Below, one piece after another: positions 4,249-25,149 of a stretch of 26,253 bases of DNA. The translations under genes and the position numbers were made by a program. Numbering within the stretch: the stretch's first letter is position 1; the number at the start of each line of letters is the position of its first letter. The stretch spans positions 1 through 26,253 of IMG/VR virus record IMGVR_UViG_3300013132_005696; one strand, 5' to 3'. This stretch comes from a virus. Under the pieces are notes generated by a model. The model was given only the letters and a program-made list of their open reading frames with translations. It was not told where the DNA came from and ran no database searches.

Positions 4249-4274
4249 ATTACGGTAATAGAAAGTAATATTAT
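4244..4274. repeat. 10-bp inverted repeat covering the queD start
   Basis: ATAATATTAC (4244-4253) and GTAATATTAT (4265-4274) are perfect inverted copies with an 11-base spacer. The left arm overlaps the -10 box and the right arm takes in the first two bases of the ATG, so it could be an operator or an RNA hairpin that hides the start codon. Confidence 0.6.
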
Positions 4275-6134: not shown

Positions 6135-6878
6135 ATGGAAGATACTATTTTTTTAAGTGACGATAAAATATTTTACACAGTAGAAGGTGAAGGAGAATAC
6201 GCAGGTATACCGTCAGTATTCATGCGTTTATCAATGTGTAACTTAACTTGTAAAGGATTTGCATCTGCAGATGCGCCTCACGGTTGTGATAGTTTTATTA
6301 GCTGGTCCATAAAAAATAAAATGACATTTGAAGAGATTTTTGAGTTAATAACACAAAATAGTTATAATTGTAAGTTAAGAGACGGTGCAATATGGAAAAT
6401 AACAGGTGGTGAGCCTCTCATACAGCAAAAACAATTACTTAAACTTGTTGCAGCATACAGAGATCGCTTTGGATATGTACCTATAATTGATTTTGAGACT
6501 AATGCAACAATACTGCCGGATGATGCTTGGATTAATGAATTTAAAGCTACGTTTACAACATCTCCTAAACTTTCTAATAATGGTGACCCTGATGAAAAGA
6601 GATTTAAGCCTACCATTTTAAAATGGCATGCAGAAAATAGGTCAGGTTTTAAATTTGTTATTAATAATGAATCTGATATAAATGAAGTTCTTGAAAAATA
6701 TATTCATAATCCTGAAATAAATGTACCTTCGAACCGCGTATGGTTAATGCCTTGCTGTGGCAGCAGAGCAGAACTAGCAGAAAAATCTGCTATGGTTGCA
6801 GAACTCTGTAAAAAACATATGCTTAATTTTAGCCCTAGATTACAATTATTAATCTGGGATAAAGCTTTAAAAGTTTAA
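6135..6878 (+). CDS. queE: 7-carboxy-7-deazaguanine synthase (radical SAM)
   Basis: Third step of preQ0 synthesis, a radical-SAM ring contraction of 6-carboxy-tetrahydropterin. Family signs: FYTVEGEGEYAGIPSVFMRLSMCNL region (13-37), GGEPL (91-95), and a substrate-binding-like TSPKLS segment. The 4Fe-4S cysteines are C35-x3-C39-x11-C51 instead of C-x3-C-x2-C, with a loop GFASADAPHG before the last cysteine. Expanded cluster loops are known in some QueE proteins, so I read this as a variant and not a defect. The 247 residues fit the family. It ends 1 base before the converging 6880 gene. Confidence 0.9.
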   Translation: MEDTIFLSDDKIFYTVEGEGEYAGIPSVFMRLSMCNLTCKGFASADAPHGCDSFISWSIKNKMTFEEIFELITQNSYNCKLRDGAIWKITGGEPLIQQKQLLKLVAAYRDRFGYVPIIDFETNATILPDDAWINEFKATFTTSPKLSNNGDPDEKRFKPTILKWHAENRSGFKFVINNESDINEVLEKYIHNPEINVPSNRVWLMPCCGSRAELAEKSAMVAELCKKHMLNFSPRLQLLIWDKALKV

Positions 6879-7387: not shown

Positions 7388-8134
7388 ATGAGAATTGCTG
7401 TATCCGGAACTGCTTGCCAAGGCAAAACAACATTTGTAAATGATTTTGTAAAAGAATGGCCAAAATATAGTATTATAGATTCTCAATATAGAAAAGAAAT
7501 TAAAGAAAAAAAACTTAAGCATAGTAGTCAGACTAGCGAAGAAGTGCAGTGGTTGATTTTAAATTCAATGATTGACGAAATGCAAAAAAATTGTGATAAA
7601 GATAACAAAGTACTTTTTGATAGATGCCCATTTGATAATATAGTCTATTCTATTTGGGCAAATGCAAAAGATTCGAAAAACATATCGGATGCATTTATTG
7701 AAAAATGTATACCGCTAGTGCGTGAATCAATGCGTATGCTTGATATTGTCTTTTTTATTCCAATTACTCGAGTTGCACCTATAACAGTTAAAGAAAATTC
7801 TACTCGCGAGACAGATGAAAACTTTATAAAAGAAATTGATAATATCTTCAAATCAATAGTTTATCAAGTTCAAAAAACGGGGGTTTCAGTATTTTTTCCT
7901 AAAGACGATTCTCCCGGGATAATAGAAATTTTTGGTAAACCTGAAGAACGTGTACACATGGCTAGATTTTATTTAAATGCAGAAGGTGATATGATTGGTG
8001 ATGAAAATAGCATTTTATCTGATTTAAACCTCACTTCACAAGTTGAAGATTTGCTCAAGGCTCAAAAAAATATTGCGGAGAGTGAAGAGTTTGAAAAGAA
8101 AATATATAAGAATTTAATTATACCTGATAGATAA
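7388..8134 (+). CDS. P-loop nucleotide-kinase-like ATPase (AAA_28/NadR-kinase type)
   Basis: Starts MRIAVSGTACQGKTTF with a Walker A GTACQGKT (7-14). A later LFDRCPFDN resembles the D-R-x substrate/phosphate motif of deoxynucleoside and nicotinamide-riboside kinases, and a basic region around RESMRMLD could act as the lid. Phages carry several such P-loop kinases for nucleotide or NAD salvage; the substrate cannot be told from sequence. At 248 residues it is longer than simple dNMP kinases, and the last 40 residues are a charged helical tail. The three dyads upstream suggest tight control. Confidence 0.65.
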   Translation: MRIAVSGTACQGKTTFVNDFVKEWPKYSIIDSQYRKEIKEKKLKHSSQTSEEVQWLILNSMIDEMQKNCDKDNKVLFDRCPFDNIVYSIWANAKDSKNISDAFIEKCIPLVRESMRMLDIVFFIPITRVAPITVKENSTRETDENFIKEIDNIFKSIVYQVQKTGVSVFFPKDDSPGIIEIFGKPEERVHMARFYLNAEGDMIGDENSILSDLNLTSQVEDLLKAQKNIAESEEFEKKIYKNLIIPDR

Positions 8135-8142: not shown

Positions 8143-8358
8143 GTGAGTAATTTTAACGAAAATTTTGAAAAACTAATTAAAGAATTTAATTCTATAACAT
8201 ATAAAAAGAGACTTTTCTATCCTAGAAATTTTAAGCTTTCGGACGAATTTGTTTCAGCGTTTAAGAAGGAAATAAAGAGATTACTTGGTGAAGGTCATAG
8301 CCCCAAATTAATTTTAGATAAAATATCAAAAGCTCTTCTCTTCCATTTCAAAAATTAA
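8143..8358 (+). CDS. Unknown small basic protein, 71 residues, GTG start
   Basis: Reads MSNFNENFEKLIKEFNS..., helical and Lys-rich, no family recognised. The start is GTG: the ATG two bases earlier is in another frame and is followed at once by TGA. No in-frame ATG occurs later, and the ATAAATA-N5 spacing supports this GTG. It ends inside a hairpin shared with the converging structural gene, overlapping it by 4 bases. Confidence 0.55.
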   Translation: MSNFNENFEKLIKEFNSITYKKRLFYPRNFKLSDEFVSAFKKEIKRLLGEGHSPKLILDKISKALLFHFKN

Positions 8359-8376
8359 GCTTTCGGAAGCAATTTT
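8351..8376. terminator. Bidirectional terminator between converging genes
   Basis: Stem AAAATT (8351-8356) / AATTTT (8371-8376) continued by GCTT (8359-8362) / AAGC (8367-8370) around a TCGG loop, with a two-A bulge. Both strands show T-rich 3' sides. It contains both stop codons. Confidence 0.5.
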
Positions 8377-9179
8377 ATATAGTCGTTCCAATCAATAATT
8401 GAACCATTACTAGAAATATAATAAAATTTTGTAACGCTCCAAGTTAACAATGTTTGAGGAGGTAATTCAGCATCATTATTAGCAACATTAGCAATACAAA
8501 ATGGTATATATACTTTGTTTAATTGCTTGTAATTACCATCACCAAAATCATCTTCACCGCTTGCAACATAATTAGTAAAATTATAGTCAAAATCTTTTAC
8601 CCATACAAATGGAGATGCAGAAGCAATTTGAACTATGGTACCAGGGATATTCTGATTGTAAAAAACTTTATATTGAATATCATAGGAATATATATTCAAA
8701 CCATTAGGCACTGTTTTTGTACCAGATAAATCCCTCTGAAAAATGCCTATACCATACTGATGTTTATATTGATCTAACAATGCTGAACCTGAATCTGTAA
8801 ATACATTGAAAACAGATGCAGATAAAGAACTTATTTGCTTATTAATTGTAGTGCTTAGAGAAGTAATTTCGGAGGAATATAAATTTGCAGCAGATAAAAT
8901 AAGTCCCCCGCTTAAAATATAGGTATTATACTGACTTCCAGTCAGAGATGTGGTAGAAATGGTTTGTCGGTCTAAATTTCTTACGGACAGAGCTGAAAGA
9001 GGGCCAGTTGTCTTAAATTCAGGTAATAATACTCTGCCCGATGTTATATTTTTAAACTTTTTTGGAAATTGATAAGAAACAAAATTTATATTGCCAGCGC
9101 TAATAACACCAGTACCAAGTTTGGCTGTTTCAATAACAAATGTATCGTTATATGATAATGATGTAACGGTAGTATCCAT
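8355..9179 (-). CDS. Virion structural protein, probable tail/neck fibre type
   Basis: 274 residues rich in Ser, Thr, Ala, Asn and Tyr with short SLS/LSG repeats (e.g. SSEITSLSTTINKQISSLSA), a pattern typical of fibrous virion proteins. A mid-protein segment FNVFTDSGSALLD and the final LLTWSVTKFYYI resemble RIFTDGGVVLID and VRVTWNIIKIY of the 240-residue protein encoded just upstream on the same strand, so the two look like diverged copies. No enzymatic motif, signal peptide or membrane segment. The exact virion position is unknown. It starts 3 bases after the stop of its partner. Confidence 0.6.
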   Translation of the reverse strand: MDTTVTSLSYNDTFVIETAKLGTGVISAGNINFVSYQFPKKFKNITSGRVLLPEFKTTGPLSALSVRNLDRQTISTTSLTGSQYNTYILSGGLILSAANLYSSEITSLSTTINKQISSLSASVFNVFTDSGSALLDQYKHQYGIGIFQRDLSGTKTVPNGLNIYSYDIQYKVFYNQNIPGTIVQIASASPFVWVKDFDYNFTNYVASGEDDFGDGNYKQLNKVYIPFCIANVANNDAELPPQTLLTWSVTKFYYISSNGSIIDWNDYIKLLPKA

Positions 9180-9182
9180 TTA

Positions 9183-9905
9183 CTAATATATTTTTATAAT
9201 ATTCCATGTTACTCTTACATTTCTTCTTATCCCAGGTCTAAAAATTATTCTAAATTGAAGTTTGCTATTACTATTTACATAGCTATTACTAATATTTTCG
9301 TCTACTAAAAGTTGTGGCATTCCTGACAAATCATATGAATTTGTTAAGTAAGAATCTAATGAAGAGTTAAACAAATACTTTACGTTAATATCTGCAGCTT
9401 CTATAAAAAGGTTTTGCGGTACATCGTTGTTACCAATTATTACTTCAGAGAAGGACGGTGCAGTATCAGCACCATCAATAAGAACTACCCCACCATCAGT
9501 AAAAATTCTAGGTACTGCAGCAGAGACTTGATTTATTTTTGTATCGGTTGTTGCACTTACTGAATCAACATATACAGAATTTGTATTTCTTGCCTCTGTT
9601 ACTAATCCAGATTGTATCTTGAAAGTATTGAAACTACCTACCGCATTTACACCAGAAACACCGTCAATAAAAATTGAAGTAAGAAAAACTTTATTTGCTG
9701 ATATACCATCTGTCACAATCAAATTATTTGTTGTTAAAGTATCATTAATAGTAACATTATTTCCAGAAATAGGTACAAATGGCAGGCTTGTAAAATCAAT
9801 TAAATATTGGCCTGTGGGTGTTTTAATTGTAAAATAGTCGCCTGGTGCGATTTCTGGAATAACAGGCAAATCAGCTATATTGATATAATTTGAACTATTT
9901 GACAT
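9183..9905 (-). CDS. Virion structural protein, paralogue of the 8355 gene product
   Basis: 240 residues. The N-terminus (MSNSSNYINIADLPVIPEIAPGD region) is followed by a beta-type stretch of alternating Thr/Asn/Ile/Val (NNVTINDTLTTNNLIV), like repetitive fibre shafts. The C-terminal half shares FTDGG...LID and a terminal TWNIIKIY pattern with its downstream neighbour. Only 28 bp separate its ATG from the ATG of the divergent glycan island. On its own strand a TTAAATA sequence lies 6 bases upstream of the ATG, close to the late-type box. Confidence 0.6.
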   Translation of the reverse strand: MSNSSNYINIADLPVIPEIAPGDYFTIKTPTGQYLIDFTSLPFVPISGNNVTINDTLTTNNLIVTDGISANKVFLTSIFIDGVSGVNAVGSFNTFKIQSGLVTEARNTNSVYVDSVSATTDTKINQVSAAVPRIFTDGGVVLIDGADTAPSFSEVIIGNNDVPQNLFIEAADINVKYLFNSSLDSYLTNSYDLSGMPQLLVDENISNSYVNSNSKLQFRIIFRPGIRRNVRVTWNIIKIY

Positions 9906-9926
9906 TTCAAATATTTAATATATAAT
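9899..9926 (+). promoter_or_regulatory. Consensus sigma-70 promoter of the glycan island
   Basis: TTGACA (9899-9904), 16-bp spacer, TATAAT (9921-9926): both hexamers perfect. The first island ATG (9934) is 7 bases after the -10 box, so the predicted transcript begins at or within 1-2 bases of the start codon. The -35 overlaps the start codon of the divergent structural gene. Confidence 0.8.
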
Positions 9927-9933
9927 CACTGAG

Positions 9934-10698
9934 ATGAAAGGAAAAATTGGGATCGGTGTAATTACCTGTGATCGAATAGAGATGCTTAAAAAATGTCTAA
10001 ATAGCATCAAACAGGATTGGTATGATTATCTTGTTGTAATAAATGATGGTTCAACACATATAGATACTAAAAAATACAATGTTATTAATAACACAACTAA
10101 CTTAGGCGTAGGTAAATCAAAGAATATTGCTCTAAAGAAATTAATGGAAAGCGGTTGTGAGCATTTATTTCTTGTTGAAGATGATATTATTTTTAAAAAA
10201 AATGTGTTTGACGCTTATATTAATGCAAGTATCAAGACAAGAGTGAAGCATTTTAACTATTGTTTACATGGGGCGGATAATAAATTAGGAAATCAGCCAA
10301 ATCCAAGAGTTGTTTTTGATATTAGAGGCATTAGGGTTGCACTCTATTTTAATGTTTATGGTGCATGTAGCTACTATCACAAGACAATTATTGATGAAGT
10401 TGGATGCATGGATGAAGAATATATCAATGCAATGGAACATGTAGATCATACAATGCGCATTATTAAACATAGTTATCACCCACCCTTCAGATGGTTTATT
10501 GATCTTGAGAATAGCAATGAGTATATCGAAGATCAAGACTTTAATCACAATGAATCGAAAATTCGACAAGGTGATTGGGTTATTAATTTTCGAAAAGGTA
10601 TTGAAAGGTTTAAGCAAAAATATAATATCGACGTAACAAATCCGGCGGAAAAATATGAAGATTTAAATTCTGTAATTACATTTTTAAAAAAATTATGA
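9934..10698 (+). CDS. Family-2-type glycosyltransferase (GT-A fold)
   Basis: Predicted inverting sugar transferase using a nucleotide-sugar donor. It starts MKGKIGIGVITCDRIEMLKKCL, the usual first beta strand and helix of GT2, with the donor-site NDGS (37-40), a TNLGVGKSKNIAL segment (55-67) and the metal-binding EDD (82-84). A later HVDHTMRI segment could supply the catalytic acidic residue. No membrane span, so it is cytoplasmic. First gene of the island, directly behind a consensus promoter; its stop overlaps the next ATG by 4 bases. Acceptor unknown. Confidence 0.85.
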   Translation: MKGKIGIGVITCDRIEMLKKCLNSIKQDWYDYLVVINDGSTHIDTKKYNVINNTTNLGVGKSKNIALKKLMESGCEHLFLVEDDIIFKKNVFDAYINASIKTRVKHFNYCLHGADNKLGNQPNPRVVFDIRGIRVALYFNVYGACSYYHKTIIDEVGCMDEEYINAMEHVDHTMRIIKHSYHPPFRWFIDLENSNEYIEDQDFNHNESKIRQGDWVINFRKGIERFKQKYNIDVTNPAEKYEDLNSVITFLKKL

Positions 10699-11447
10699 AA
10701 ATTGGTGTTGGCATAACCACATTCAATTCAGAAAAAGTTTATTCCAATCTTTATGAATCTCTACCAAGAGATAAAATAGATGTCTTAGTTACTGTAAACG
10801 GTGGCAAAGAATACAAAAACAAATACACAGATAGTCACTGGATTCAGCATTCACAAAATTACTATCCTTCAACATGTAGAAATGATTGTTTGAGGTTTAT
10901 GCATGAAAGGGATGTTGATTATTTTATTACAATAGAAGATGATATGGTAATTAAGGACAAAGATATATTTGAAAAATATATTGCTGCCGCAAATATTTCA
11001 AAAATAGGTTATTTTTGTTTTGTGAGTACCTCGTGGGGGTCTGGTACCCCCGAAAAGAGGACACCAAAAATCGAGCTTCAATATAGTAAAAATATTTCAG
11101 TTTGTCTATATCCTAATATGTGTAATGAATTTACATTTAAAACTAAGAAGTGTTTTGAAGAGACAGGTCTATATAATAATAATTTTAGATTTTTATTCGA
11201 CGTAGAGAATGTATATAGAATTTCTAAAACAAATCATATGCCAGGGTTTTGGTGGTTTCCCGATCTAAAAAATTCTGATCAGTTAATTATGAATAACCCG
11301 GATTCTCAAACGCGCATAAACGCTGGCGGCGAAAGAGATAAGAAATTAGGACCAGAATACGAATTGTTTTATAAACTACACTCTATAAATATACCGAACA
11401 TTCCAAATTTACCAAAAGAGAATATTATTAATAAGATAAAATTATGA
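10695..11447 (+). CDS. Family-2-like glycosyltransferase
   Basis: Second of three adjacent genes beginning with the same strand pattern (MKIGVGITTFNS). The metal site is EDD (81-83) in FITIEDDMVIKD. The donor-site loop (VNGGKEY, 35-41) is shortened compared with the first gene. The region GFWWFPDLKNSDQ matches the position of FRWFIDLENSNE in the previous protein, so the two probably arose by duplication. Overlaps both neighbours by 4 bases (ATGA). Specificity unknown. Confidence 0.78.
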   Translation: MKIGVGITTFNSEKVYSNLYESLPRDKIDVLVTVNGGKEYKNKYTDSHWIQHSQNYYPSTCRNDCLRFMHERDVDYFITIEDDMVIKDKDIFEKYIAAANISKIGYFCFVSTSWGSGTPEKRTPKIELQYSKNISVCLYPNMCNEFTFKTKKCFEETGLYNNNFRFLFDVENVYRISKTNHMPGFWWFPDLKNSDQLIMNNPDSQTRINAGGERDKKLGPEYELFYKLHSINIPNIPNLPKENIINKIKL

Positions 11448-12214
11448 AAATCGGCATTGGTATAAGTAGCTATAAACAAGAAAAAGATTTGCTAGATAGA
11501 GAAAAATTTTGCTTAGAATCATTGAGAAAATGTAAAGAAAAAATAAAAAACGTTACATTATACACAATTATCAATGAAGGTGATAGAATTAATTATAAAA
11601 ATTTCGAGACATTAGAAATTAAGCAAGAAAAAAAAATACCTTACACTAATCAATTAATAGATAAAATCTCCGAAACTAACAACGATCTAATTGTATTTCT
11701 TAACAACGATATTATACTCAATAGTACTTTCTTTAAACTAATTGAAGATGATATTGATACATATCCAGCATCCCGTGCACATTTACATGAATTAAACTCT
11801 CTTTCAGAACCACTCAAGATACAATCTTATAGCGTTATGGGGTTTGATATGTTTGCTTTTAAAAATTCTTGGTGGAAAGCGAATAAGAAGTTATTTCCAA
11901 ATATGTATTTGGGCCGCTCATATTGGGATACAGTATATTTCATGAAATGTGTTTTAAATAGTAAATATAAAATCTTAAACAAGTTGCCCCCTGTAATATT
12001 TCATGCAGAGCATCAATCAGTTACAGAACACAACCATGATGAATTCAGAAATCATAACGAACAAATTGCTGCTGCAGATCCCGATATGGCAAAATGGTGG
12101 TACTATGTATATAATGTTCTTTTAAAAAGAAACACTATAGATGAAATATTATGGTGGAAGCCTCACGATAATGAAATTGAGTTAGAGAAAAAATTATTAA
12201 AAAATGAAAATTAA
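11444..12214 (+). CDS. Family-2-like glycosyltransferase
   Basis: Starts MKIGIGISSYKQEK, like the two genes before it, and carries an NND (87-89) in VFLNNDIILN where they have EDD, a change also seen in active GT2 enzymes. A Trp-rich C-terminal part (KWWYYVYNV, EILWWKP) may form the acceptor side. It overlaps the next gene by 11 bases. The N-terminal match to its neighbours suggests a three-gene tandem expansion. Confidence 0.72.
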   Translation: MKIGIGISSYKQEKDLLDREKFCLESLRKCKEKIKNVTLYTIINEGDRINYKNFETLEIKQEKKIPYTNQLIDKISETNNDLIVFLNNDIILNSTFFKLIEDDIDTYPASRAHLHELNSLSEPLKIQSYSVMGFDMFAFKNSWWKANKKLFPNMYLGRSYWDTVYFMKCVLNSKYKILNKLPPVIFHAEHQSVTEHNHDEFRNHNEQIAAADPDMAKWWYYVYNVLLKRNTIDEILWWKPHDNEIELEKKLLKNEN

Positions 12215-12899
12215 AGCGTATACTCTTTTTACTCCTTCACACGAAAAATTGTTAAAAAATTATTTGTTAGATTCATTTATATATTCACCAAAAATTGATT
12301 TAACTATTATCAATAAACCTCAACTTTGTGAAACTGCAGAGTTTGGCTCAAATGGGTGGAAATCTACAATGAGGTACAAGGCAGATTGTTTTTACGAAAA
12401 TCTTAAAAGATGTAATGAAGAGGAAATCTTTATGTTTATTGATCCTGATATAGTTGTTTATAAAGATTTTTGCGATGATATTTTGCAAAGAATGAACAAT
12501 TATGATGCTTTATTTCAAAACGATGGGCCAGGTGGTATAAACACAGGATTTTTTGCAGTTAAAAATAATAAGTTAACAAGGGCATTTTTTAATACGGTAA
12601 GAAATAATCTCGAACATTTTGATGAAGAACAAAGAACAGCAAATTATCTACTAAGAAATTTAGATCAGTATCCAACTATTTCTATAAAATGGGGATTTTT
12701 ACCATGGGAATATTGGACATACGGTCAAATCGCTGGTGAGTGGGACAATAAGGGTGGATTAAAAGGTCATTGGTTTAATACAGATAAAACCTTCTCAATA
12801 CCCAAAAATATTTTTATTCATCATGGCAATTGGACAAGAACATTTGATGATAAGTATAAAATTCTCGATACAGTGAGGTCACGTATAAATGGTAATTAA
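12204..12899 (+). CDS. Nucleotide-diphospho-sugar transferase (GT77-like)
   Basis: 231 residues with a D-x-D site FIDPDIVV (79-85), then GPGGINTGFFAVKNNK, in which the NTGFF-like pattern is typical of retaining GT-A enzymes of the nucleotide-diphospho-sugar transferase group. A C-terminal IFIHHGNWTR supplies the late His found in such enzymes. The early GWKSTMRYKADC (51-62) fits the usual donor-site Lys/Arg region. Not related by eye to the first three genes of the island, so it is probably a different linkage or donor. Confidence 0.72.
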   Translation: MKIKAYTLFTPSHEKLLKNYLLDSFIYSPKIDLTIINKPQLCETAEFGSNGWKSTMRYKADCFYENLKRCNEEEIFMFIDPDIVVYKDFCDDILQRMNNYDALFQNDGPGGINTGFFAVKNNKLTRAFFNTVRNNLEHFDEEQRTANYLLRNLDQYPTISIKWGFLPWEYWTYGQIAGEWDNKGGLKGHWFNTDKTFSIPKNIFIHHGNWTRTFDDKYKILDTVRSRINGN

Positions 12900-13752
12900 T
12901 TTTAAAAATTTGAGGGTACCTGCTAGCTACCCAGTTTACCCGCCATATCATAAAGGTGATTATCTAGAAGAATATTTTTATAAATTTTACAAAAATAATA
13001 AATCTAAATTTGATGAAATTAATAGAACTCTTATACCTATATTTTGGACTAATGTATATATAACAGGCAAAAATACCGAGTTATTACAACCATATCTGGA
13101 TAGTTTGCCTCGAGATAAAAAATATTTTACAGTCTCGCAACACGATGATGCAGTAAGTCAAATATTACCGCCCGATACTATAAGCTTTGAAGCAGGTGGA
13201 AATAGAAATGGAGTACCTATACCGTTAATTTGTTCGCCGATAGAGAAAGAACATCTCAATACTACAAAAAAAGATATATTTTGTTCATATGTAGGCTCAA
13301 TATCAAACAATGCGCATTGCAGAGTAAAATTGTACCAAACATATTCTAATGACCCGGATTTTTATTTTTCACAACCTAGATATTGGACACCTTCCGTGCC
13401 GCAAGATAAATTTGATGAATTTATTAATATTACAAAAAGATCTATTTTTAGTCTTTGTCCTAAAGGGTACGGCAAGCAAAGCTTTAGATTATATGAAGTT
13501 ATACAGTTAGGCTCCGTACCTATTTTTGTTTATACTGATAAGTGGTTTCCATTTAAAAAATTTATAAATTGGGATAAATTTTGTGTGTTAATTCATGAAA
13601 ACGAAATACATAGTTTGAAAAATAAACTCTTAAGCTATAATAAAATTGATATCAAAAATATGTTGGCGGAAGGTAGAAAAATATACAATGAATATTTCAC
13701 GATGGAAGGTATGTCTAGAGGTATTTTAAAATATTTGCAAAATGAAAAGTGA
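12889..13752 (+). CDS. Exostosin-like glycosyltransferase (GT47 type)
   Basis: 287 residues. The C-terminal half has the exostosin signature in SLCPKGYGKQSFRLYEVIQL (188-207), followed at once by GSVPIFV, where the Arg and Glu contact the nucleotide-sugar in GT-B enzymes. An FCSYVGSISNNAHCRVKLY segment (131-149) corresponds to the family's F-x-G...R region. Exostosin enzymes in eukaryotes extend heparan or pectin chains; bacterial and viral members act on surface glycans with unknown detail. It is shorter than eukaryotic members and lacks their membrane anchor. Overlaps both neighbours by 11 bases. Confidence 0.78.
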   Translation: MVINFKNLRVPASYPVYPPYHKGDYLEEYFYKFYKNNKSKFDEINRTLIPIFWTNVYITGKNTELLQPYLDSLPRDKKYFTVSQHDDAVSQILPPDTISFEAGGNRNGVPIPLICSPIEKEHLNTTKKDIFCSYVGSISNNAHCRVKLYQTYSNDPDFYFSQPRYWTPSVPQDKFDEFINITKRSIFSLCPKGYGKQSFRLYEVIQLGSVPIFVYTDKWFPFKKFINWDKFCVLIHENEIHSLKNKLLSYNKIDIKNMLAEGRKIYNEYFTMEGMSRGILKYLQNEK

Positions 13753-14491
13753 TTTACCATTATTTTATTATCAACCTAACACTGTAGATTTTCTAGAGAA
13801 AAGTGTTGAGCTAAACAAGAAAATATTTAAAAATCTTATAATTTTGCAAAAAGATTTTTATGAACCTTTTGATAGTATATACAAGCATATGTGCTATAAC
13901 CATGAAGCTTTTGAACGGTTTTGCTTAAGACGATTTTTTGTTATGTTAGAATACGTCAAAGAGAACAATATAGACAAATTTCTTTATTCTGATACTGATG
14001 CAATATTTTTAAAGTTATTAGATTTTGAAAATATACTTGGTAAGGAACATAGCATTCTCTGTAAACCTGCGGAACAAGATAAATTTGACGATATTGCTGC
14101 AGCACATTTTTCAATATGGTCACGAGCCGGTTTGGAAAATTTTTGTGATTTTGTATTATCAGTCTATGCTAATAACATACAGATAATTGAACCAAAATGG
14201 CACTGGCACATAAGCACAGCAACTGGCGGCGGTATATGTGATATGACACTACTATATCATTGGTATAAAAATAAAAAAAGTTTATTAGACTATTATAATG
14301 GTGGAGTATTTGATCGTACTATTGGAATTTCACATAATAATTACAAGAATGAATTTGTAACAAAGGATGGTATTAAGAAGCTTAAAAGAAAAGATAGTAT
14401 TGTTTATGGTACTAATAATAAAGGTGAAGAAATAGAATTTTATGGGGTGCATTTTCAAGGAGCAAATAAAAGACTAATGTTTCTATTATGA
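13742..14491 (+). CDS. Glycosyltransferase-like protein with DTD motif
   Basis: 249 residues. A D-x-D site SDTDAIF (83-89) follows a helical region with FCLRRFFVMLEYV, the arrangement seen in GT-A sugar transferases. GGGICDMTLLYHWY resembles the D-x-x-L element of retaining enzymes, and VHFQGANKRLM near the end supplies a C-terminal His. I do not recognise the exact family. Its place between other transferases and the ATGA overlap with the next gene support a role in the same pathway. Confidence 0.65.
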   Translation: MKSDLPLFYYQPNTVDFLEKSVELNKKIFKNLIILQKDFYEPFDSIYKHMCYNHEAFERFCLRRFFVMLEYVKENNIDKFLYSDTDAIFLKLLDFENILGKEHSILCKPAEQDKFDDIAAAHFSIWSRAGLENFCDFVLSVYANNIQIIEPKWHWHISTATGGGICDMTLLYHWYKNKKSLLDYYNGGVFDRTIGISHNNYKNEFVTKDGIKKLKRKDSIVYGTNNKGEEIEFYGVHFQGANKRLMFLL

Positions 14492-15291
14492 AAAAATTTT
14501 TAACAACCTTTGCATTGTATGACGATTATAAGCAAAATTTATATAGTCAATATATTAAACCTAGATATATAAAATATTCTCAATTGCATGGATTGAAATT
14601 TGTAGAACTCAATCACAATAATTTTTCTATTAAAACATTACATCCGGAATTTCCTCCAAGAGAAAATATGCATTTTAATAGATGGATGTTATTTAAAGAC
14701 CTTCTAGATCAAAATGTAATTAATGACGGTGACATAATTTATAATTTTGATGCAGATATTTTTATTAAAGATTTAAACAAGTTCTTTACACCCACAAAAG
14801 CTTTTTCGTATGCAATTGATTCTGGCAATACTCATTGTTTTGGTTTTTTTGCACTACTAATAAATAATTTTAGCAGAAAACTTATTGATAATATTATTAA
14901 TAGAGAAAGATGGCTCAAGGTAAGTCAACATGAGTTTTTCAATGAACATGACAATACAAAAGGCAGATGGCATATTGCAGATCAACAGATGTATTACACG
15001 TGTGCTGGTATAAAACCACATAGTTGGAAATCTTTTTATGAACTAGATAATTACGGCTTTCACTCTTATCCAACAGAACATACTATTTTTTCTTTAACAG
15101 ATCTATTAGATAATATAAATGTATTACCTACCGAATGGAACGTTACGCAACTTGCTGAGGAAACTGGTGATAACGGTAAACCAAATATGTATGATATCGT
15201 TCAAACAACAGAAGAAAAAACAATTTTTAGACATTTTGCAGGTGGTCAGCCCTGGAGATTTAACGAATGGTCATTAAAATACCCATTATAA
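14488..15291 (+). CDS. Glycosyltransferase (GT34/GT8-like) with DAD motif
   Basis: 267 residues. IIYNFDADIFI carries the D-x-D site (Asp88, Asp90), DQQMYY lies about 75 residues further on, and VLPTEWNVT followed by IFRHFAGG near the end gives the His of the C-terminal metal site. This order (DxD, DQ, W-N, H-F-x-G) is what retaining galactosyl/glucosyl transferases of the GT8 and GT34 groups show. The donor cannot be assigned. One base separates its stop from the methyltransferase ATG. Confidence 0.7.
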   Translation: MKKFLTTFALYDDYKQNLYSQYIKPRYIKYSQLHGLKFVELNHNNFSIKTLHPEFPPRENMHFNRWMLFKDLLDQNVINDGDIIYNFDADIFIKDLNKFFTPTKAFSYAIDSGNTHCFGFFALLINNFSRKLIDNIINRERWLKVSQHEFFNEHDNTKGRWHIADQQMYYTCAGIKPHSWKSFYELDNYGFHSYPTEHTIFSLTDLLDNINVLPTEWNVTQLAEETGDNGKPNMYDIVQTTEEKTIFRHFAGGQPWRFNEWSLKYPL

Positions 15292-15292
15292 T

Positions 15293-15883
15293 ATGCCAGT
15301 AGTTGAACCATATTTAGGCGGATCAATGTATGAAGGAGATCCCGCAACAGCTTTTCCTACCTTGTGGGAATTTTTAGTAAAAGATAAAAATATAAAGACA
15401 GTTTTAGATGTTGGTTGTGGTAGGGGCCATGCATTAAAAATATTTCAAGATTTAGGCTGCAAAGTAACAGGTATAGAAGGCGACATAGAAGCAGTTAATA
15501 CTGCTTTGGTACCTGGAAGAATTAAATGCTATGATTTTACTTATCAAAAAGTTGTACCACAAAAAGATTTTGATTTAGTTATAAGCGTTGAATTTGTCGA
15601 ACATGTTGAAGAAAAATTTAAAGAAAATTTTTTAACTTGTTTTGATAAAGGTAAATTTATTGCAATGACATTTGCCGGGCCGGGACAAGGTGGGCATCAC
15701 CATGTAAACTGTCAACCTGCTGAATATTGGATTAAAGAAATAGAAAAGCGTGGGTTTATTTACAACGATCAGTATACAAAAATTTTAAAAGATAAAGCTA
15801 TTTCTGATAGATTTAATTTTTGCCCCACTTTTGATGGGAACCATTTTGAACACAGAGGTCTTTTCTTTGAACGAAAAAAATGA
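15293..15883 (+). CDS. SAM-dependent methyltransferase
   Basis: Class I Rossmann methyltransferase of 196 residues. Motif I VLDVGCGRGHAL (37-48), acidic residue after strand 2 in GIEGD (60-64), and FDLVISVEFVEHVEE as motif IV/post-I. Because all neighbours act on sugars, the likely substrate is a sugar or glycan (for example O-methyl capping), but Ubi/COQ-type or other small-molecule methylation cannot be excluded. A His-rich GGHHHVNC loop lies near the active site side. Overlaps the next gene by 4 bases. Confidence 0.85.
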   Translation: MPVVEPYLGGSMYEGDPATAFPTLWEFLVKDKNIKTVLDVGCGRGHALKIFQDLGCKVTGIEGDIEAVNTALVPGRIKCYDFTYQKVVPQKDFDLVISVEFVEHVEEKFKENFLTCFDKGKFIAMTFAGPGQGGHHHVNCQPAEYWIKEIEKRGFIYNDQYTKILKDKAISDRFNFCPTFDGNHFEHRGLFFERKK

Positions 15884-16608
15884 AAATAACTGATATAACT
15901 ATTTGTTTGCATTGCGGATGCAATAGAGACATAACAAACACACAAATGCGTATGTTAGAAGGTGTGGAGCAGAAATATAATGTTACATGGAATAATCGCA
16001 TTGATCGTTACCCTCATATGTACAATTCCTATTCATTGCTTATTAATCATTCCATAGTGACGTCTCCAACAGAATGGGTTATACTCATTAATGACAGAAC
16101 ATCACCTACATTATCTGAAATAGATAAGATGGTAAATTTATTAGAAAATGGTTTTTCATGTGTTTTCTTGTATGCTGTTGGATTTATGGGATTTTCAAAA
16201 GAATTAATACGACAAATCGGCTGGTGGGACGAAAGATATGTTCACGGTGGATGGGAAGATAGAGATTGGGTTTTTCGTCTGGCTGAATCAAATTTAGCTC
16301 TCTACGAAAGTTTGGAGAGTACATATGACAATACATGGAAGTCCCCTCTTAATGTACCAGGCGGTAATAGCTCCACACCTTTTTGGCTTAAGAAATGGAA
16401 TGGTTATGATCATCATATTTTATATAAAAATATTGATGATGAAAAATACCCGCACTGGGATTTATTTCTTGGCAATTCAAGACCCGATATTAGCAAAACA
16501 TGGAAAAAATGGAATGATTCTATTTTGAATATAGACTATAATAAACCGGGCGCAGGGCCTTCCGGTTCTTCTATTTTAAGTAATAGAAAAATTGTAAAGA
16601 ATTTTTAA
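15880..16608 (+). CDS. Family-2-like glycosyltransferase
   Basis: 242 residues. It has an NDR (71-73) in VILINDRTSP at the place of the metal site, and GGWEDRDWVFRLAES (123-137), a GT2-type catalytic ED followed by a helix. GFMGFSKELIRQIGWWDERY just before it is the standard segment preceding that motif. The first 60 residues are shorter and less GT2-like than in the 9934 product. Four bases separate it from the next gene. Confidence 0.75.
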   Translation: MKITDITICLHCGCNRDITNTQMRMLEGVEQKYNVTWNNRIDRYPHMYNSYSLLINHSIVTSPTEWVILINDRTSPTLSEIDKMVNLLENGFSCVFLYAVGFMGFSKELIRQIGWWDERYVHGGWEDRDWVFRLAESNLALYESLESTYDNTWKSPLNVPGGNSSTPFWLKKWNGYDHHILYKNIDDEKYPHWDLFLGNSRPDISKTWKKWNDSILNIDYNKPGAGPSGSSILSNRKIVKNF

Positions 16609-16612
16609 TGCT

Positions 16613-17569
16613 ATGAAAAAACATATCCTAATAACTGGTGGAGCTGGATTTCTCGGCACACATTCAATCGAAAAATATCTTGATAATGATTATACAGTTA
16701 CAGTAATAGATAATTTTTCTACTGCAGTAGTAAGAGAAACCAACCCTGTACTTCAAAACATTAATTTAATAAATGGAGATATTTTAAAATTTAACTTTAA
16801 TGATCTGGGTAAATATGATCTTATTTTACATTTAGCAAGCCCCGTAGGGCCTGCAGGTATTCTCAAACATTCAGGTAATATGGCGAGATATATTCTGGAT
16901 GATATTTACTGGGCAATAGATGGTGCGCTTATTAATAATTGTCCTTTAATTTTCTTAAGTACATCAGAGATTTATGGTTTCAGAGACAGACCTGTTTTAT
17001 TGAAAGAAAACGATGACAAAATTTTAGTTGGTGAATTTAAAGTTAGAAACGAGTATAGTATTTCTAAATTATTAGCAGAAATAGTTTTATCAAATACTGC
17101 AAAGGTAAATAAAAATTTAAAATATCAAATTATTCGCCCCTTTAATATAAGCGGTGCGCGGCAATTAAAAACAGGCGGTTTTGTATTACCTACTTTTGTA
17201 CAGCAAGCACTTGAAGGTACTGATATTACTGTTTTTGGTGATGGTACACAAGTAAGAGCTTTTACGCATGTAAAAGATATAGTTGACGGAATTTTTCTTA
17301 CATCCCAGACAAAAAATTATAATCAAATATGGAATGTCGGTAATTCTGATAATATTGCATCAATTCATAAAATGGCGGAAATAGTAAAACAAAAAACTAA
17401 TAGTAATTCAAAAATTACTCTTGTTGATCCCAAGAATATACATGGCCCGTTATATGAAGAAGCATGGGATAAAATTCCAGATGCGTCAAAAATTAGAACT
17501 GATCTCGGATGGGCTCCAAAATACAATATAGATTTTATTATTGATGATGTTATAAATTACTATAAATGA
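16613..17569 (+). CDS. NAD-dependent nucleotide-sugar epimerase/decarboxylase (extended SDR)
   Basis: 318 residues, usual length. NAD site GGAGFLG (9-15), HLASPVGPAG after strand 4, LSTSEIYG with the catalytic Ser/Thr region, and YSISK as the Y-x-x-x-K pair. RPFNISG and VFGDGTQVRAFTHVKDIVDG are the substrate-binding signatures of this family. The nearest well-known relatives are UDP-glucuronate decarboxylase and UDP-glucose 4-epimerase; the HLASP motif leans to the decarboxylase side, which makes UDP-xylose. The sugar is not certain. Overlaps the next gene by 4 bases (ATGA). Confidence 0.8.
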   Translation: MKKHILITGGAGFLGTHSIEKYLDNDYTVTVIDNFSTAVVRETNPVLQNINLINGDILKFNFNDLGKYDLILHLASPVGPAGILKHSGNMARYILDDIYWAIDGALINNCPLIFLSTSEIYGFRDRPVLLKENDDKILVGEFKVRNEYSISKLLAEIVLSNTAKVNKNLKYQIIRPFNISGARQLKTGGFVLPTFVQQALEGTDITVFGDGTQVRAFTHVKDIVDGIFLTSQTKNYNQIWNVGNSDNIASIHKMAEIVKQKTNSNSKITLVDPKNIHGPLYEEAWDKIPDASKIRTDLGWAPKYNIDFIIDDVINYYK

Positions 17570-18309
17570 AAAAAATTGGAATTATTGGTTATGGTGAAAT
17601 TGGTTCATCTCTGGAGAAATGTTATTTAGGCAAAGATTTTACAGTACAAATTTTAGATAATAAGAAAAACATTAATACGATTACTAAAGATTTAGATGTA
17701 CTTAATATTTGCATACCATATCTTGACCCCGATCAGTTTATAACTGCTACAGGTAGTTATATAAAAGAATTTACGCCAAAATTAACAATAATTCATAGTA
17801 CTGTTATACCTGGCACAACATGTAAAATACAAAAAAATTATAATATTGATACAATAATACATTCACCAGTTAGAGGGATTCATCCAAATTTATTTGAAGG
17901 TATAAAAACATTTGTCAAATATATAGGTAGTAACAATGAGGCATCTACAGAGTTAGCTGTTCAACATTACAAAGAATTAGATATAAAATATGATATTTTT
18001 AGTTCTTCTACTGCTACTGAATTAGCTAAAATTCTTGATACAACCTACTATGGTGTATGTATAGCTTTTCACAATGATATAAATAGACTCTGTACAAAAT
18101 TTGGTGTTAAATTCTCTGAAGTTGCGACAAAATATAATAACACATATAACGATGGGTTTAAAGCTTTAGGCATGAATAATGTTACTAGACCGGTGCTCTA
18201 CCCTCCCAAGGATAATAAAATTGGTGGTCACTGTGTTGTACCAAATGCAGAGCTTTGCAAAAAGTTTTTTGATAGTCTAGCATTAGACTATATCTTACAA
18301 CTAAAATAG
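17566..18309 (+). CDS. Short UDP-glucose/GDP-mannose dehydrogenase-like protein
   Basis: 247 residues against about 400-450 in the family. It keeps the NAD-binding IGIIGYGEIG (4-13), HSTVIPGTT (77-85; STVPPGTT in the family), a central TELAKILDTT helix (151-160; normally ending in Asn at the position of Thr159) and GGHCVVPN with the catalytic Cys223. The C-terminal substrate-binding domain is absent. Real dehydrogenases need that domain for the dimer active site, so it may have a changed reaction, need a partner, or be a reductase on another substrate. No frameshift is evident: the stop is followed by a clean 34-bp gap. Confidence 0.75.
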   Translation: MKKIGIIGYGEIGSSLEKCYLGKDFTVQILDNKKNINTITKDLDVLNICIPYLDPDQFITATGSYIKEFTPKLTIIHSTVIPGTTCKIQKNYNIDTIIHSPVRGIHPNLFEGIKTFVKYIGSNNEASTELAVQHYKELDIKYDIFSSSTATELAKILDTTYYGVCIAFHNDINRLCTKFGVKFSEVATKYNNTYNDGFKALGMNNVTRPVLYPPKDNKIGGHCVVPNAELCKKFFDSLALDYILQLK

Positions 18310-18329
18310 TTGATAATAAAAATTAATAC

Positions 18330-18335
18330 TATAAT
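18330..18335 (+). promoter_or_regulatory. TATAAT box 8 bases before the 18344 gene
   Basis: Perfect -10 hexamer in the only real gap of the island. A TTGATA at 18310-18315 is spaced by only 14 bp, which is short, so this is a weak call. Confidence 0.35.
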
Positions 18336-18343
18336 TTAAAATA

Positions 18344-19318
18344 ATGAAAAAAGCTTTAGTTTGTGGTGCAGGCGGTTTTATAGGCAATCATCTTGTTGCT
18401 GCACTTAAAAATAAAAATTTTTGGGTCAGGGGTGTAGATATAAAACATCCTGAATTTAGTACAACTAAAGCCGATGATTTTTTAGTATGTGATTTAAGAG
18501 ATAAACATTCTGTTATTAAATCACTCTCTACAGATCAATCTGGTACTCCCGTAGATGAAATCTATCAACTTGCTGCTGATATGGGTGGTGCCGGCTATAT
18601 TTTTTCGGGTAACCATGACGCAGATGTAATGCATAATTCAGCTTTAATTAATCTTAATATTATTGAGGCTTCAAAAAAATTTAATGTTAAAAAAATATTT
18701 TACAGTAGCAGCGCGTGCATGTACCCGGAGCACAATCAGCTTGACCCACTTAATCCTAATTGTGAGGAAAGCTCTGCTTATCCAGCTAACCCTGACAGTG
18801 AATATGGGTGGGAGAAACTTTTTAGTGAAAGAATTTACTTAGCATTTAATAGAAATTATAATTTCGATGTACATATAGCTAGATTTCATAATATTTTTGG
18901 ACCTCTCGGATCATGGAATAATGGAAAAGAGAAGGCTCCAGCTGCTATATGTAGAAAAATAGCCATGGCTAAAGATGGTGATGAAATAGAAATTTGGGGT
19001 GATGGTAATCAAACAAGAAGTTTTCTATATGTAGATGAGTGTATTGAAGGCATATTTAGATTAATGAATTCTAATTTTAATGGGCCTGTGAATATAGGTT
19101 CAGAAGAAATGATTTCTATAAATCAATTAGTCGATACAATTTCTGACATTGCGGGTAAAAAAATATTTAAAAAACATATACCCGGGCCCGTAGGTGTAAG
19201 AGGAAGAAATTCTAATAACAAATTGATAGAAAAAGAGTTAGGGTGGAAGCCTTCACAACCTTTAAAAATTGGTTTGGAACAAACTTATAGATGGATAGAA
19301 TCACAAGTTCATTTATAA
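18344..19318 (+). CDS. GDP-mannose 3,5-epimerase
   Basis: Would convert GDP-D-mannose to GDP-L-galactose (and GDP-L-gulose). The sequence follows the plant enzyme closely along its length: GAGGFIG (8-14), LAADMGGAGYI (77-87), SSACMYPE with Cys125, Y154-G-W-E-K158, RFHNIFGP, KEKAPAAICRK with Lys197, WGDGNQTRSF, and HIPGPVGVRGRNS (278-290). Cys125, Tyr154, Lys158 and Lys197 correspond to the known catalytic residues. 324 residues is slightly shorter than plant forms (about 375), with the difference at the N-terminus. GDP-mannose would have to come from the host or from genes outside the window. Product use by the adjacent transferases is inferred. Confidence 0.9.
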   Translation: MKKALVCGAGGFIGNHLVAALKNKNFWVRGVDIKHPEFSTTKADDFLVCDLRDKHSVIKSLSTDQSGTPVDEIYQLAADMGGAGYIFSGNHDADVMHNSALINLNIIEASKKFNVKKIFYSSSACMYPEHNQLDPLNPNCEESSAYPANPDSEYGWEKLFSERIYLAFNRNYNFDVHIARFHNIFGPLGSWNNGKEKAPAAICRKIAMAKDGDEIEIWGDGNQTRSFLYVDECIEGIFRLMNSNFNGPVNIGSEEMISINQLVDTISDIAGKKIFKKHIPGPVGVRGRNSNNKLIEKELGWKPSQPLKIGLEQTYRWIESQVHL

Positions 19319-19325: not shown

Positions 19326-19910
19326 ATGATTATTGAGCAAATTATATACGACGGGTCACTCTTACATTCACGGTTTGCATATAAATTTTTTAGGGAAAAG
19401 ACTTTACCTATTGGTAATATCATAGCATTTCGCGCTCCTATGAAAGTAGAAGCTGAGGGGATGATAGATTCAGAAGATATATTGAGCGGTGATTATATCT
19501 ACAGCGATGATGCAATTAATTTTTTATGGGAAATACCCAATCTAGATTCTTTTGGTGCAGTAGCATACCAGCGATTACTCAACACCCAAATAGCAAACAT
19601 ACTTTCAACTCACTATATAAATGCGCCCATAGAAATGAGAGGTGATGATATGATTGTTCATAAAGAACACGAGCAGGGAGGTGTTGTTCAACCTTCCGGT
19701 AAATGTAGTGTAAGCATTACCTATACAAAGAATAATGTTGCGCTCGGTCATACTGGTATTAATATTACCGCAGGCAAGAAAGCGCCTGCGTTTGCTTATT
19801 CTACCAAACTCACAGATACACAGACAACTGATTTCATGAAAGATGTTGTTACTTTATTTTACAATTTGAATGATGATATTTTTATCGCTACAACAAAAGT
19901 TATTTCTTAA
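19326..19910 (+). CDS. DUF366-like protein
   Basis: 194 residues. Motif order matches what I recall of the DUF366 family (mostly archaeal, unknown function): IYDGS (7-11), AFRAPM (34-39), MIDSED (46-51), IYSDD (58-62), QRLL (82-85), RGDD (105-108), KCSVSI (126-131) and GINITAG (144-150). The KCSVSI/RGDD pairing recalls the biotin/lipoate ligase fold, with which I believe the family is linked, but no reaction is known to me. Its stop and the next start overlap as TAATG, coupling it to the clamp-loader gene. Confidence 0.6.
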   Translation: MIIEQIIYDGSLLHSRFAYKFFREKTLPIGNIIAFRAPMKVEAEGMIDSEDILSGDYIYSDDAINFLWEIPNLDSFGAVAYQRLLNTQIANILSTHYINAPIEMRGDDMIVHKEHEQGGVVQPSGKCSVSITYTKNNVALGHTGINITAGKKAPAFAYSTKLTDTQTTDFMKDVVTLFYNLNDDIFIATTKVIS

Positions 19911-23344: not shown

Positions 23345-24016
23345 ATGGCATTACGTCTTTTAGTCGAAACACCTTCCCCAGAAGAATTTGAGTATATACT
23401 GGAAGACAAGAACTCAAAGGGCCCTGCCAATCTTTTTATTAAAGGCCCTTATATGATGGCAGAAGGCATAAACAAAAATAATAGAATTTACGATTTGAAA
23501 GAAATGGCTAAGGAAGTTTCTCGTTACACCGAAGAATTTATTAAGAGCAACAGAGCAATGGGCGAGTTAAACCACCCAACAGCAGCAGATGTAAATCTTG
23601 AAAGGGCATGTCATCTTGTTACCGAATTAAAGCAAGATGGTAATGTTTTTTATGGTACTTCAAAAGTGCTTTCTACCCCCATGGGTATGATTGTAAAGTC
23701 ATTAATTCAAGATGGTGTAAGAGTTGGTATGTCATCGCGTGCTCTAGGTAAGCTTGAAGAACAAGATAACGGTGTTGATAGAGTCTCAGAAATGAGACTT
23801 ATCGCTATTGATTGTGTTGCTGATCCATCGTTTCCCAAAGCTTTCGTAAATGGTATATTAGAGTCTAAGCAATTCGTAGTTGGTCAAGATGGCAGGTATG
23901 AGGAGGTGTATAATGAATTTGAAAACAGAATTTCTTCTTTGCCTAAAAAAGATTTAGAAACATTTTTAAAGGAGCAAATATCTAATTTCTTTAAAAAAAT
24001 GACTTTAACAGTATAA
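23345..24016 (+). CDS. 21: Prohead core protease (gp21-like)
   Basis: Serine protease of the T4 gp21/herpes assemblin type that cuts the scaffold and capsid proteins as the head matures. Visible motifs: GPYMMAEGINKNNRIYD (34-50), GELNHP with the catalytic His77, VGMSSRALG with Ser130/131, and a later AIDCVADPSFP. 223 residues is close to T4 gp21 (212). It is followed by gp67-, gp22- and gp23-like genes in the order expected for a T4-like head block, except that gp67 lies after and not before the protease. Confidence 0.93.
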   Translation: MALRLLVETPSPEEFEYILEDKNSKGPANLFIKGPYMMAEGINKNNRIYDLKEMAKEVSRYTEEFIKSNRAMGELNHPTAADVNLERACHLVTELKQDGNVFYGTSKVLSTPMGMIVKSLIQDGVRVGMSSRALGKLEEQDNGVDRVSEMRLIAIDCVADPSFPKAFVNGILESKQFVVGQDGRYEEVYNEFENRISSLPKKDLETFLKEQISNFFKKMTLTV

Positions 24017-24019
24017 ATA
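24012..24019 (+). promoter_or_regulatory. T4-type late promoter TATAAATA before the gp67-like gene
   Basis: Perfect TATAAATA overlapping the gp21 stop codon, 5 bases before the next ATG. Confidence 0.6.
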
Positions 24020-24024
24020 TTATT

Positions 24025-24177
24025 ATGCATAATACGGATAACAATAATAATACTAAGCTTAATATTAGTAAATTCGTAAGAGCAATTTCTGAAAAAAATT
24101 ACGCCGAAGCAAATAAATATTTAAAGAACGCAATTAACGAGAAAATCAAAACAAAAATCTCGAAAATTGCAAAATAA
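24025..24177 (+). CDS. 67: Prohead core protein, gp67-like, 50 residues
   Basis: A short ORF reading MHNTDNNNNTKLNISKFVRA, then ISEKNYAEANKYLKNAINEK, then IKTKISKIAK. The FVRAISEKNYAEANKYL / NAINEKIKTKI pattern lines up with T4 gp67 (LIEAIKSNDLVAARKLF / EAMAARTIDLI). T4 gp67 is a short internal core protein cut up during maturation. It lacks the acidic C-terminal tail of T4 gp67. It lies between the protease and scaffold genes with its own late-type box. Confidence 0.65.
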   Translation: MHNTDNNNNTKLNISKFVRAISEKNYAEANKYLKNAINEKIKTKISKIAK

Positions 24178-24184
24178 AAAAATT

Positions 24185-25069
24185 ATGAAAGAAGTAAAAG
24201 ACGTATTAAAGACAGCAGCCAAGGATATCCTTTCTGAGGATACTCTTAATGAACTACAAAATATTTTTAATGAAGCAGTAGCAGAAAAAGTTAAACTACA
24301 TGTTGAAAAAGCATTACTAGAGCAAGATGATGATTATTCTAATAAGCTTGAAAAATTAGTTGCTGCTCTTGATGTAGACCATACAGAGAAATTAACAAAA
24401 GTTTATGAAGCAGTAGTTGCAGATCATGCAGCAAAATTGCATAATGTTATCAACAAATACGAGGCCGATTACAACGGTGATGCAAAGAATTTCAAACAAA
24501 ATTTAGTTGAGAATATTTCTAATTATTTAGAACTTTATATTGATGAAGCAATACCTGCTGCAGCAATTAATGAAGCTGTTAAGAACAAAAAATCAAATCA
24601 AATTCTTGAACAAATAAAGAATGTTCTATCTGTCAATGAAGCTTCAGTGAATAATTCAATTCGTGAAGCTATTATTGATGGCAAGAATCAAATCGATGAA
24701 GCTAATAAAAAGCTTGAAGCCGTTCTCTCTGAGAACAAGGAATTAAAGTCAAAAATGGAAAAACTAGAAGTTAATAAACTAGTTGCCGAAAAGACTAAGG
24801 ATATGAATCCAGAAGTAGTTGAAAAAGTATTCAAGCTACTTAATGGTAAAGATCCAAAGTTTGTAAAAGAAAATTTTGACTATACAGTTAAGATGTTTGA
24901 AAAAACAGAGAACGAACGGCTTGAAACTCTAGCTTCTGAAGCAGTAAATGACTCGCAAGCGGTTGAAGTTGATCGCCCGGTAATTGAGGAATCAGCTAAA
25001 CCAACTGCTAATGAAAATGAAGTTGATGCGTCTGCTGCCTTCTATCTAAAAGAATTAAGCAAGTATTAA
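24185..25069 (+). CDS. 22: Prohead scaffold/core protein (gp22-like)
   Basis: 294 residues from the ATG at 24185; I rejected the upstream in-frame TTG (24167) because it lies inside the gp67-like gene. Almost wholly predicted helix and coiled coil, rich in Lys, Glu, Ala and Asn (e.g. KLEAVLSENKELKSKMEKLE). It forms the assembly core inside the prohead and is degraded by gp21. Several L/I-x-E sites that could be cut by such a protease occur (e.g. ALLEQ, ILEQ). Position between protease and capsid genes is the T4 order. Confidence 0.85.
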   Translation: MKEVKDVLKTAAKDILSEDTLNELQNIFNEAVAEKVKLHVEKALLEQDDDYSNKLEKLVAALDVDHTEKLTKVYEAVVADHAAKLHNVINKYEADYNGDAKNFKQNLVENISNYLELYIDEAIPAAAINEAVKNKKSNQILEQIKNVLSVNEASVNNSIREAIIDGKNQIDEANKKLEAVLSENKELKSKMEKLEVNKLVAEKTKDMNPEVVEKVFKLLNGKDPKFVKENFDYTVKMFEKTENERLETLASEAVNDSQAVEVDRPVIEESAKPTANENEVDASAAFYLKELSKY

Positions 25070-25149
25070 TTTTGTAGAGTTTCTGAGGTTTTAAACCTGA
25101 ACAGATATTTAATTGGTCGACTAATCGTTTTGGAGAAACTTATTCAATT
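25070..25149 (+). promoter_or_regulatory. gp23 leader with inverted repeat and Shine-Dalgarno
   Basis: 80-base leader. AGGTTTTAAACCT (25086-25098) is a perfect inverted repeat, extended by TCTG (25082-25085) and CAGA (25102-25105) with a GAA bulge. GGAG (25132-25135) lies 14 bases before the ATG. No TATAAATA is present. I tried to read a tRNA here and could not. Confidence 0.5.

Follow-up and report, generated by a model that had tools for sequence, protein, structure and literature searches.

A twelve-gene block in a T4-like phage as a likely allele of a polymorphic glycan-synthesis locus of uncultured aquatic phages

Large sets of glycosyltransferase (GT) genes have already been published for aquatic T4-like phages. 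Such a set of 13 proteins, with GDP-mannose 3,5-epimerase (GME), GMD, fucosyltransferases and a number of glycosyltransferases among them, is known from cyanophage S-SCSM1 (PMC9602691), and the host recognition cluster of pelagimyophages is a hypervariable island with glycosyltransferases (PMC7029224). Here we consider a block of twelve genes at positions 9934-19318 of the 26,253-base virus record IMGVR_UViG_3300013132_005696; the whole of this stretch is referred to as the window. The record comes from a T4-like phage, with genes of the gp21 protease, a gp22-like scaffold protein and the gp23 capsid protein at 23345-26253. Its gp21 and gp23 are only approximately 34-43% identical to their counterparts in cultured phages; the nearest ones come from cyanophages and single-cell marine viruses. 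The initial annotation presented the block as a candidate undescribed system. This was too strong, as the gene set of S-SCSM1 (PMC9602691), the pelagimyophage island (PMC7029224) and a similar, mostly unannotated cluster in Synechococcus phage S-SKS1 precede it.

S-SCSM1 resembles the phage of the window in being an aquatic T4-like phage that has a large gene set with GME and several glycosyltransferases. However, the accessible parts of its description read these genes as host cell-wall genes and do not describe a fixed site with a conserved first glycosyltransferase (PMC9602691). No homologue of the first gene of the block, GT1, was found in Synechococcus phages. The pelagimyophage cluster is likewise hypervariable, rich in glycosyltransferases, borne by aquatic T4-like phages and close to structural genes, but it is situated between VrlC and gp14, together with tail fibres, and is dominated by GT8 (PMC7029224). 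In contrast, the block considered here has a kinase gene on one side and a DUF366 gene on the other, and gp21-gp23 are downstream of it; vrlC and gp14 were not seen in the window, which ends at gp23.

More distant parallels exist. In chloroviruses, virus-encoded and largely soluble enzymes build glycans with a conserved core and variable outer sugars on the capsid protein (PMC9614988, PMC11571054). The block is similar to the PBCV-1 system in its mostly soluble glycosyltransferases, nucleotide-sugar enzymes, methyltransferases and related folds (A075L, A064R), whereas PBCV-1 has a eukaryotic host and N-linked glycans. To our knowledge, the chlorovirus glycosylation genes do not form a single exchangeable cassette. 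In mycobacteriophages Che8, Corndog and Myrna, phage glycosyltransferases decorate capsid and tail-tube proteins; these phages have one or a few glycosyltransferases and are not known to have a nucleotide-sugar pathway or a large cassette open to exchange. The bacterial O-antigen and capsule loci have the same fixed flanks, swapped contents and horizontal transfer of whole cassettes, but the cassettes considered here are phage-borne and have no export or polymerisation genes. No description of an architecture combining a fixed site, a conserved first enzyme, exchange of whole cassettes and a divergent fibre-like partner was found in the open-access literature, which is not proof of absence.

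The block is best explained as an allele of a polymorphic locus for glycan synthesis, which uncultured aquatic T4-like phages of one clade carry at a fixed site. Relatives were collected via DUF366 (80 loci) and via the GT47 gene of the block (24 loci), and their open reading frames (ORFs) were called mechanically. The viral and genome scans were based on exact peptide patterns, and distant relatives escape them. The analysed set comprises 26 complete, de-duplicated cassettes, the window's own included, with 252 proteins; 19 large records of relatives, up to 217 kb and not certified complete, were considered in addition. Wherever both ends are present, the cassette has a kinase gene of the type found at 7388 on its left and DUF366 on its right, and the head genes lie downstream. 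The cassettes have 4-17 genes each, forming 73 protein clusters, 34 of which are singletons. A member of the GT1 cluster is the first gene in 25 cassettes out of 26 and the second one in the cassette of L105, and the GT1 search was positive in all 19 large records. At the gene level this is the chlorovirus-type arrangement of a conserved core and variable outer enzymes, as GT1 is universal and the others vary. The hot spot is a glycan locus throughout, since the cassettes of other phages encode GT10, GT11, GT23/FUT8-like, GT25, GT7C and GT1-like transferases, FkbM and other methyltransferases, an aminotransferase and a HAD-nucleotidyltransferase fusion.

Whole cassettes are exchanged, because distant phages keep 11 of the 12 genes, whereas close phages have mostly replaced them. 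The initial annotation suggested looking for the same gene order elsewhere, and it was indeed found in distant phage contigs: L132, L140 and L083 contain all genes of the block except the methyltransferase, in the same order and with approximately 57-76% identity, while their flanks are mostly 33-62% identical to the window. Conversely, the flanks of L003 and L007 are approximately 54-91% identical to the window, yet few cassette members are kept, at 29-68%. On a well-supported helicase tree, the distribution of the close GT47 gene requires at least five changes; incomplete upstream sequence in some loci may inflate this count, but the sequences of L003 and L007 span the entire cassette.

All twelve ORFs of the island are intact, lie on the plus strand and are closely packed: neighbours either overlap, by 4 or 11 bases, or are 1-34 bases apart. 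Purifying selection acts on every gene compared (pN/pS approximately 0.07-0.6, with synonymous sites near saturation), and thus gene decay is not indicated. GT1 (9934-10698) is a GT2-like glycosyltransferase of the GT-A type (PHROG 2456, 7.6e-29; weak Pfam GT2 match). Its structure model (pLDDT 92) matches GT-A folds, and the catalytic EDD is invariant across 16 aligned members. The second gene (10695-11447) encodes another GT2-like glycosyltransferase from the same cluster, C0 (PHROG 2456, 8.8e-16). The gene at 11444-12214 had no usable match in the Pfam and PHROG family searches, and an invariant DxD-like motif FLNND and the conserved gene order suggest a GT-A transferase. It is followed by a GT77-type transferase (12204-12899; Nucleotid_trans, PF03407, 2.2e-8) with an invariant DPD motif, and by an exostosin-type GT47 transferase (12889-13752; PF03016, 5.7e-15; PF24785, RXYLT1_C, 4.5e-10) with profile matches to EXT1/EXT2 (5e-12) and PBCV-1 A075L (0.0033). 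The product of 13742-14491 is a probable transferase, as indicated by an invariant DxD-like motif SDTDA and synteny; it had no usable family match and its PDB profile search was uninformative. The same was true of the PDB profile search with the product of 14488-15291, predicted from its fold (model pLDDT 87) to be a GT-A transferase with a DAD motif. Foldseek matches this model to 2p6w (3.7e-7) and 6bsu (4e-6) with TM of about 0.5-0.6, the nearest folds being domain 1 of PBCV-1 A064R and xyloglucan xylosyltransferase (GT34), in agreement with the GT8/34-like type assigned initially. The S-adenosylmethionine-dependent methyltransferase gene (15293-15883; PF13489, 1.6e-10) is conserved least among the twelve, with relatives in L005 and L084 only. 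The last transferase gene (15880-16608) is GT2-like, with an invariant GGWEDRDW motif and a weak PHROG glycosyltransferase match (0.0026). Thus, of the eight transferase-like genes counted in the initial annotation, six have database or fold support, and the genes at 11444 and 13742 are assigned by motif and gene order.

The remaining three genes encode candidate enzymes of nucleotide-sugar synthesis, as in the chlorovirus systems. The product of 16613-17569 is a short-chain dehydrogenase/reductase similar to UDP-glucuronate decarboxylase (UDP-xylose synthase); the match to 4lk3 (1.5e-31) makes this a moderate assignment, all NCBIfam models being under cut-off. The gene at 17566-18309 encodes a compact nucleotide-sugar dehydrogenase (PF00984, 1.2e-5; 3g79, 1.4e-9) that retains the loop of the catalytic cysteine, GGHC, and has no C-terminal domain of UDP-glucose dehydrogenases. 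The compact form has equal length in L083 and is possibly an unusual minimal enzyme. The product of 18344-19318 is clearly predicted to be GME (2c59, 1.5e-92 across 319 residues). Taken together, the transferase, methyltransferase and nucleotide-sugar enzyme assignments support the initial description of the block as a glycan-synthesis cassette of a T4-like phage. However, the term "self-contained" used there was too strong, because UDP-glucose and GDP-mannose must be supplied by the host.

The best reading of the function, to which we assign about an even chance, is cytoplasmic glycosylation of a virion protein. The phage would make rare nucleotide sugars in the host cytoplasm: GME would yield GDP-L-galactose or L-gulose, and the dehydrogenase and decarboxylase probably UDP-glucuronate and UDP-xylose. 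GT1 would add the first sugar to a conserved phage acceptor, the variable glycosyltransferases would add further sugars and branches, and the methyltransferase would cap the chain. With a conserved acceptor and outer sugars that can vary freely, one would expect just such a set, in which the first enzyme stays the same and the later ones change. The acceptor would most likely be a virion protein, and variation of the outer sugars would alter what the particle presents to hosts, receptors or grazers. The glycosyltransferases are predicted to be soluble, without signal peptides and membrane spans, as in chloroviruses. In a simple window scan for hydrophobicity, none of the 252 cassette proteins had more than one strong hydrophobic segment and eight had one; the cassettes therefore have no flippases, no polymerases and no membrane enzymes of the Gtr type. 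In particular, no multi-span protein that could be an O-antigen or capsule exporter, polymerase or initiating transferase was found in the 26 cassettes, nor were such proteins found among 25 of 41 Pfam families. Similarly, no multi-span membrane protein that could correspond to GtrA, GtrB or the membrane Gtr of serotype conversion was seen in the 26 cassettes. Two known systems provide links to virion glycans. A075L and A064R of PBCV-1 take part in making the capsid glycan (PMC11571054, PMC9614988). Virion proteins of Myrna are glycosylated (PMC12363180), and GT1 is approximately 29% identical (7e-14) to its annotated glycosyltransferase gp234, a distant, family-level similarity to a protein that is not confirmed as the responsible enzyme.

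The first candidate acceptors are the capsid and two fibre-like proteins encoded next to the block. The gene at 9183-9905 (minus strand) is divergent from GT1 and belongs to a family of 23 proteins with a conserved N-terminus (consensus SNYVNIxxLPxxxxxxxxDLLxVQTxxGTQTIDF) and a variable C-terminus; its paralogue from the same family is located at 8355-9179 (minus strand). The family is positioned head-to-head with GT1 in 18 of 26 cassettes. In many relatives the GT1/fibre intergenic region contains, on the minus strand, a T4-late-like TATAAATA; the window has only the TTAAATA variant, and this was not counted as evidence. The initial annotation mentioned a Thr-rich linker as a possible glycan target. 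The gene at 2-1975 (plus strand) indeed encodes a virion-type protein in which a long Thr/Pro-rich TPTxT repeat precedes RCC1-like repeats. However, this mucin-like linker is not a general acceptor: proteins rich in TPT were found in 4 of 19 large relatives, recurring several times in G001 and G006, and none was found in G013, although its cassette is the same.

A number of observations weigh against glycosylation of the virion. Both the glycan and the acceptor are predictions made from the genes. The fibre-like gene is absent from 8 of 26 cassettes, and the protein encoded at 9183 had no informative PHROG family match. Moreover, similarity of glycosyltransferases in sequence or fold does not fix the acceptor, as GT-A folds are alike: among the nearest folds of GT1 are enzymes for teichoic acid, O-antigen and gangliosides, and the TM of the 14488 model with A064R is just about 0.5-0.6. 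The simplicity of the window scan weakens the negative result on membrane proteins. Finally, glycosyltransferases of the lipopolysaccharide (LPS) core are also soluble, and thus the absence of membrane proteins leaves room for an acceptor on the host surface, built with the host's own flippases.

Accordingly, the main rival is modification of the host surface, in which the infected cell would have its LPS or capsule rebuilt, so that competing phages could not adsorb or release would be affected. The cassettes do contain GT11, GT10 and GT25, families frequent in O-antigen loci, and one bacterial contig has a relative of the GT47 gene (39-41%) beside two cassette-like genes (27-32%). Such a role was also proposed for similar genes of pelagimyophages (PMC7029224) and of cyanophages (PMC9602691). 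On the other hand, genes for a flippase, a polymerase, an initiating phosphoglycosyltransferase or a membrane protein of the Gtr type are missing from all 26 cassettes, lytic infection would give little time for surface remodelling, and GT1 is conserved over phages that probably infect varied hosts, which a phage-borne acceptor would fit better. We regard this explanation as a real possibility, although less likely than glycosylation of the virion. Passive carriage of a captured fragment of a host capsule or O-antigen locus is the least probable alternative. Bacterial glycan loci are mobile, and a few members of the cassette have bacterial relatives at 27-41%; but the site and gene order are kept in phages only, and the genes are present clade-wide and, where compared, are under purifying selection. 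The initial annotation named a match of the block to a host capsule locus, with scattered presence in phages, as one observation that would refute it. The pattern-based scan of 84,980 genomes yielded a single GT47 relative with 39% identity, on the delta-proteobacterial metagenome-assembled contig mentioned above (L128, 10001-12394), and a host capsule origin was rejected. This contig is a possible representative of a bacterial source pool.

Attachment of sugars to hypermodified DNA bases as a protection against restriction also seems improbable, although slightly less so than passive carriage. Phage glycosyltransferases glycosylate DNA in T4, and in the window the hot spot lies among folE, queD, queE and DUF366. 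However, no thymidylate-synthase-type hydroxymethylase was found in the 19 large records, which may be incomplete, with positive controls, and no TGT/DpdA was found in the same records; DNA glycosylation was rejected for this reason. No gene of the island had a Pfam or PHROG match to DNA-glycosyltransferase families, the alpha- and beta-GT of T4-type DNA glucosylation included, and up to 17 hypervariable genes would be more than base protection needs.

The flanks of the hot spot are of some interest in themselves. The 7-deazaguanine pathway genes folE, queD and queE and the DUF366 gene (1978-2628 on the minus strand, 4273-4926, 6135-6878 and 19326-19910) surround it, yet without TGT/DpdA in the 19 relatives. 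The left anchor (7388-8134, plus strand; PHROG 2107, 1.8e-15) is similar to deoxynucleoside and thymidylate kinases and lies near queE in relatives; it could be a nucleotide kinase for modified deoxyguanosine. The right anchor, DUF366 (19326-19910, plus strand; PF04017, 7e-24), has 75-89% identity in the 80 loci, is nearly absent from cultured phages and is probably outside the glycan pathway. No link between DUF366 and 7-deazaguanine was found in the open-access literature.

The single strong promoter noted initially in front of the block was retained in part. A sigma-70-like signal TTGACA-16-TATAAT at 9899-9926 (plus strand) precedes GT1 and is the sole 12/12 match in the scanned stretch. 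However, its -35 box TTGACA is the complement of the start-codon region of the divergent fibre-like gene, and the signal is specific to the window's clade: L002, L003, L005 and L007 have kept it (in L002 with a spacing of 14 rather than 16), and relatives further away have lost it. Hence a strong conserved promoter was rejected. A transcript of GT1 from this promoter would be nearly leaderless, as the -10 box ends 7 nucleotides before the ATG.

Glycosyltransferases of aquatic phages are usually filed as auxiliary genes of the host cell wall. A fixed locus with an invariant first enzyme offers a testable handle, as identification of the GT1 acceptor would explain hundreds of such genes. If the acceptor is a virion protein, aquatic phages would have variable sugar coats, with a bearing on receptor choice, particle decay, grazing and competition between phages. 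More tentatively, the fixed site may be a serotype locus of the phage's own particles, with an invariant initiating glycosyltransferase that would recognise a conserved virion protein encoded head-to-head with it and with glycan cassettes exchanged between distant phages; this would be the phage counterpart of the bacterial O-antigen loci. These phages seem to swap sugar coats, probably on their own particles, as bacteria swap capsule loci.

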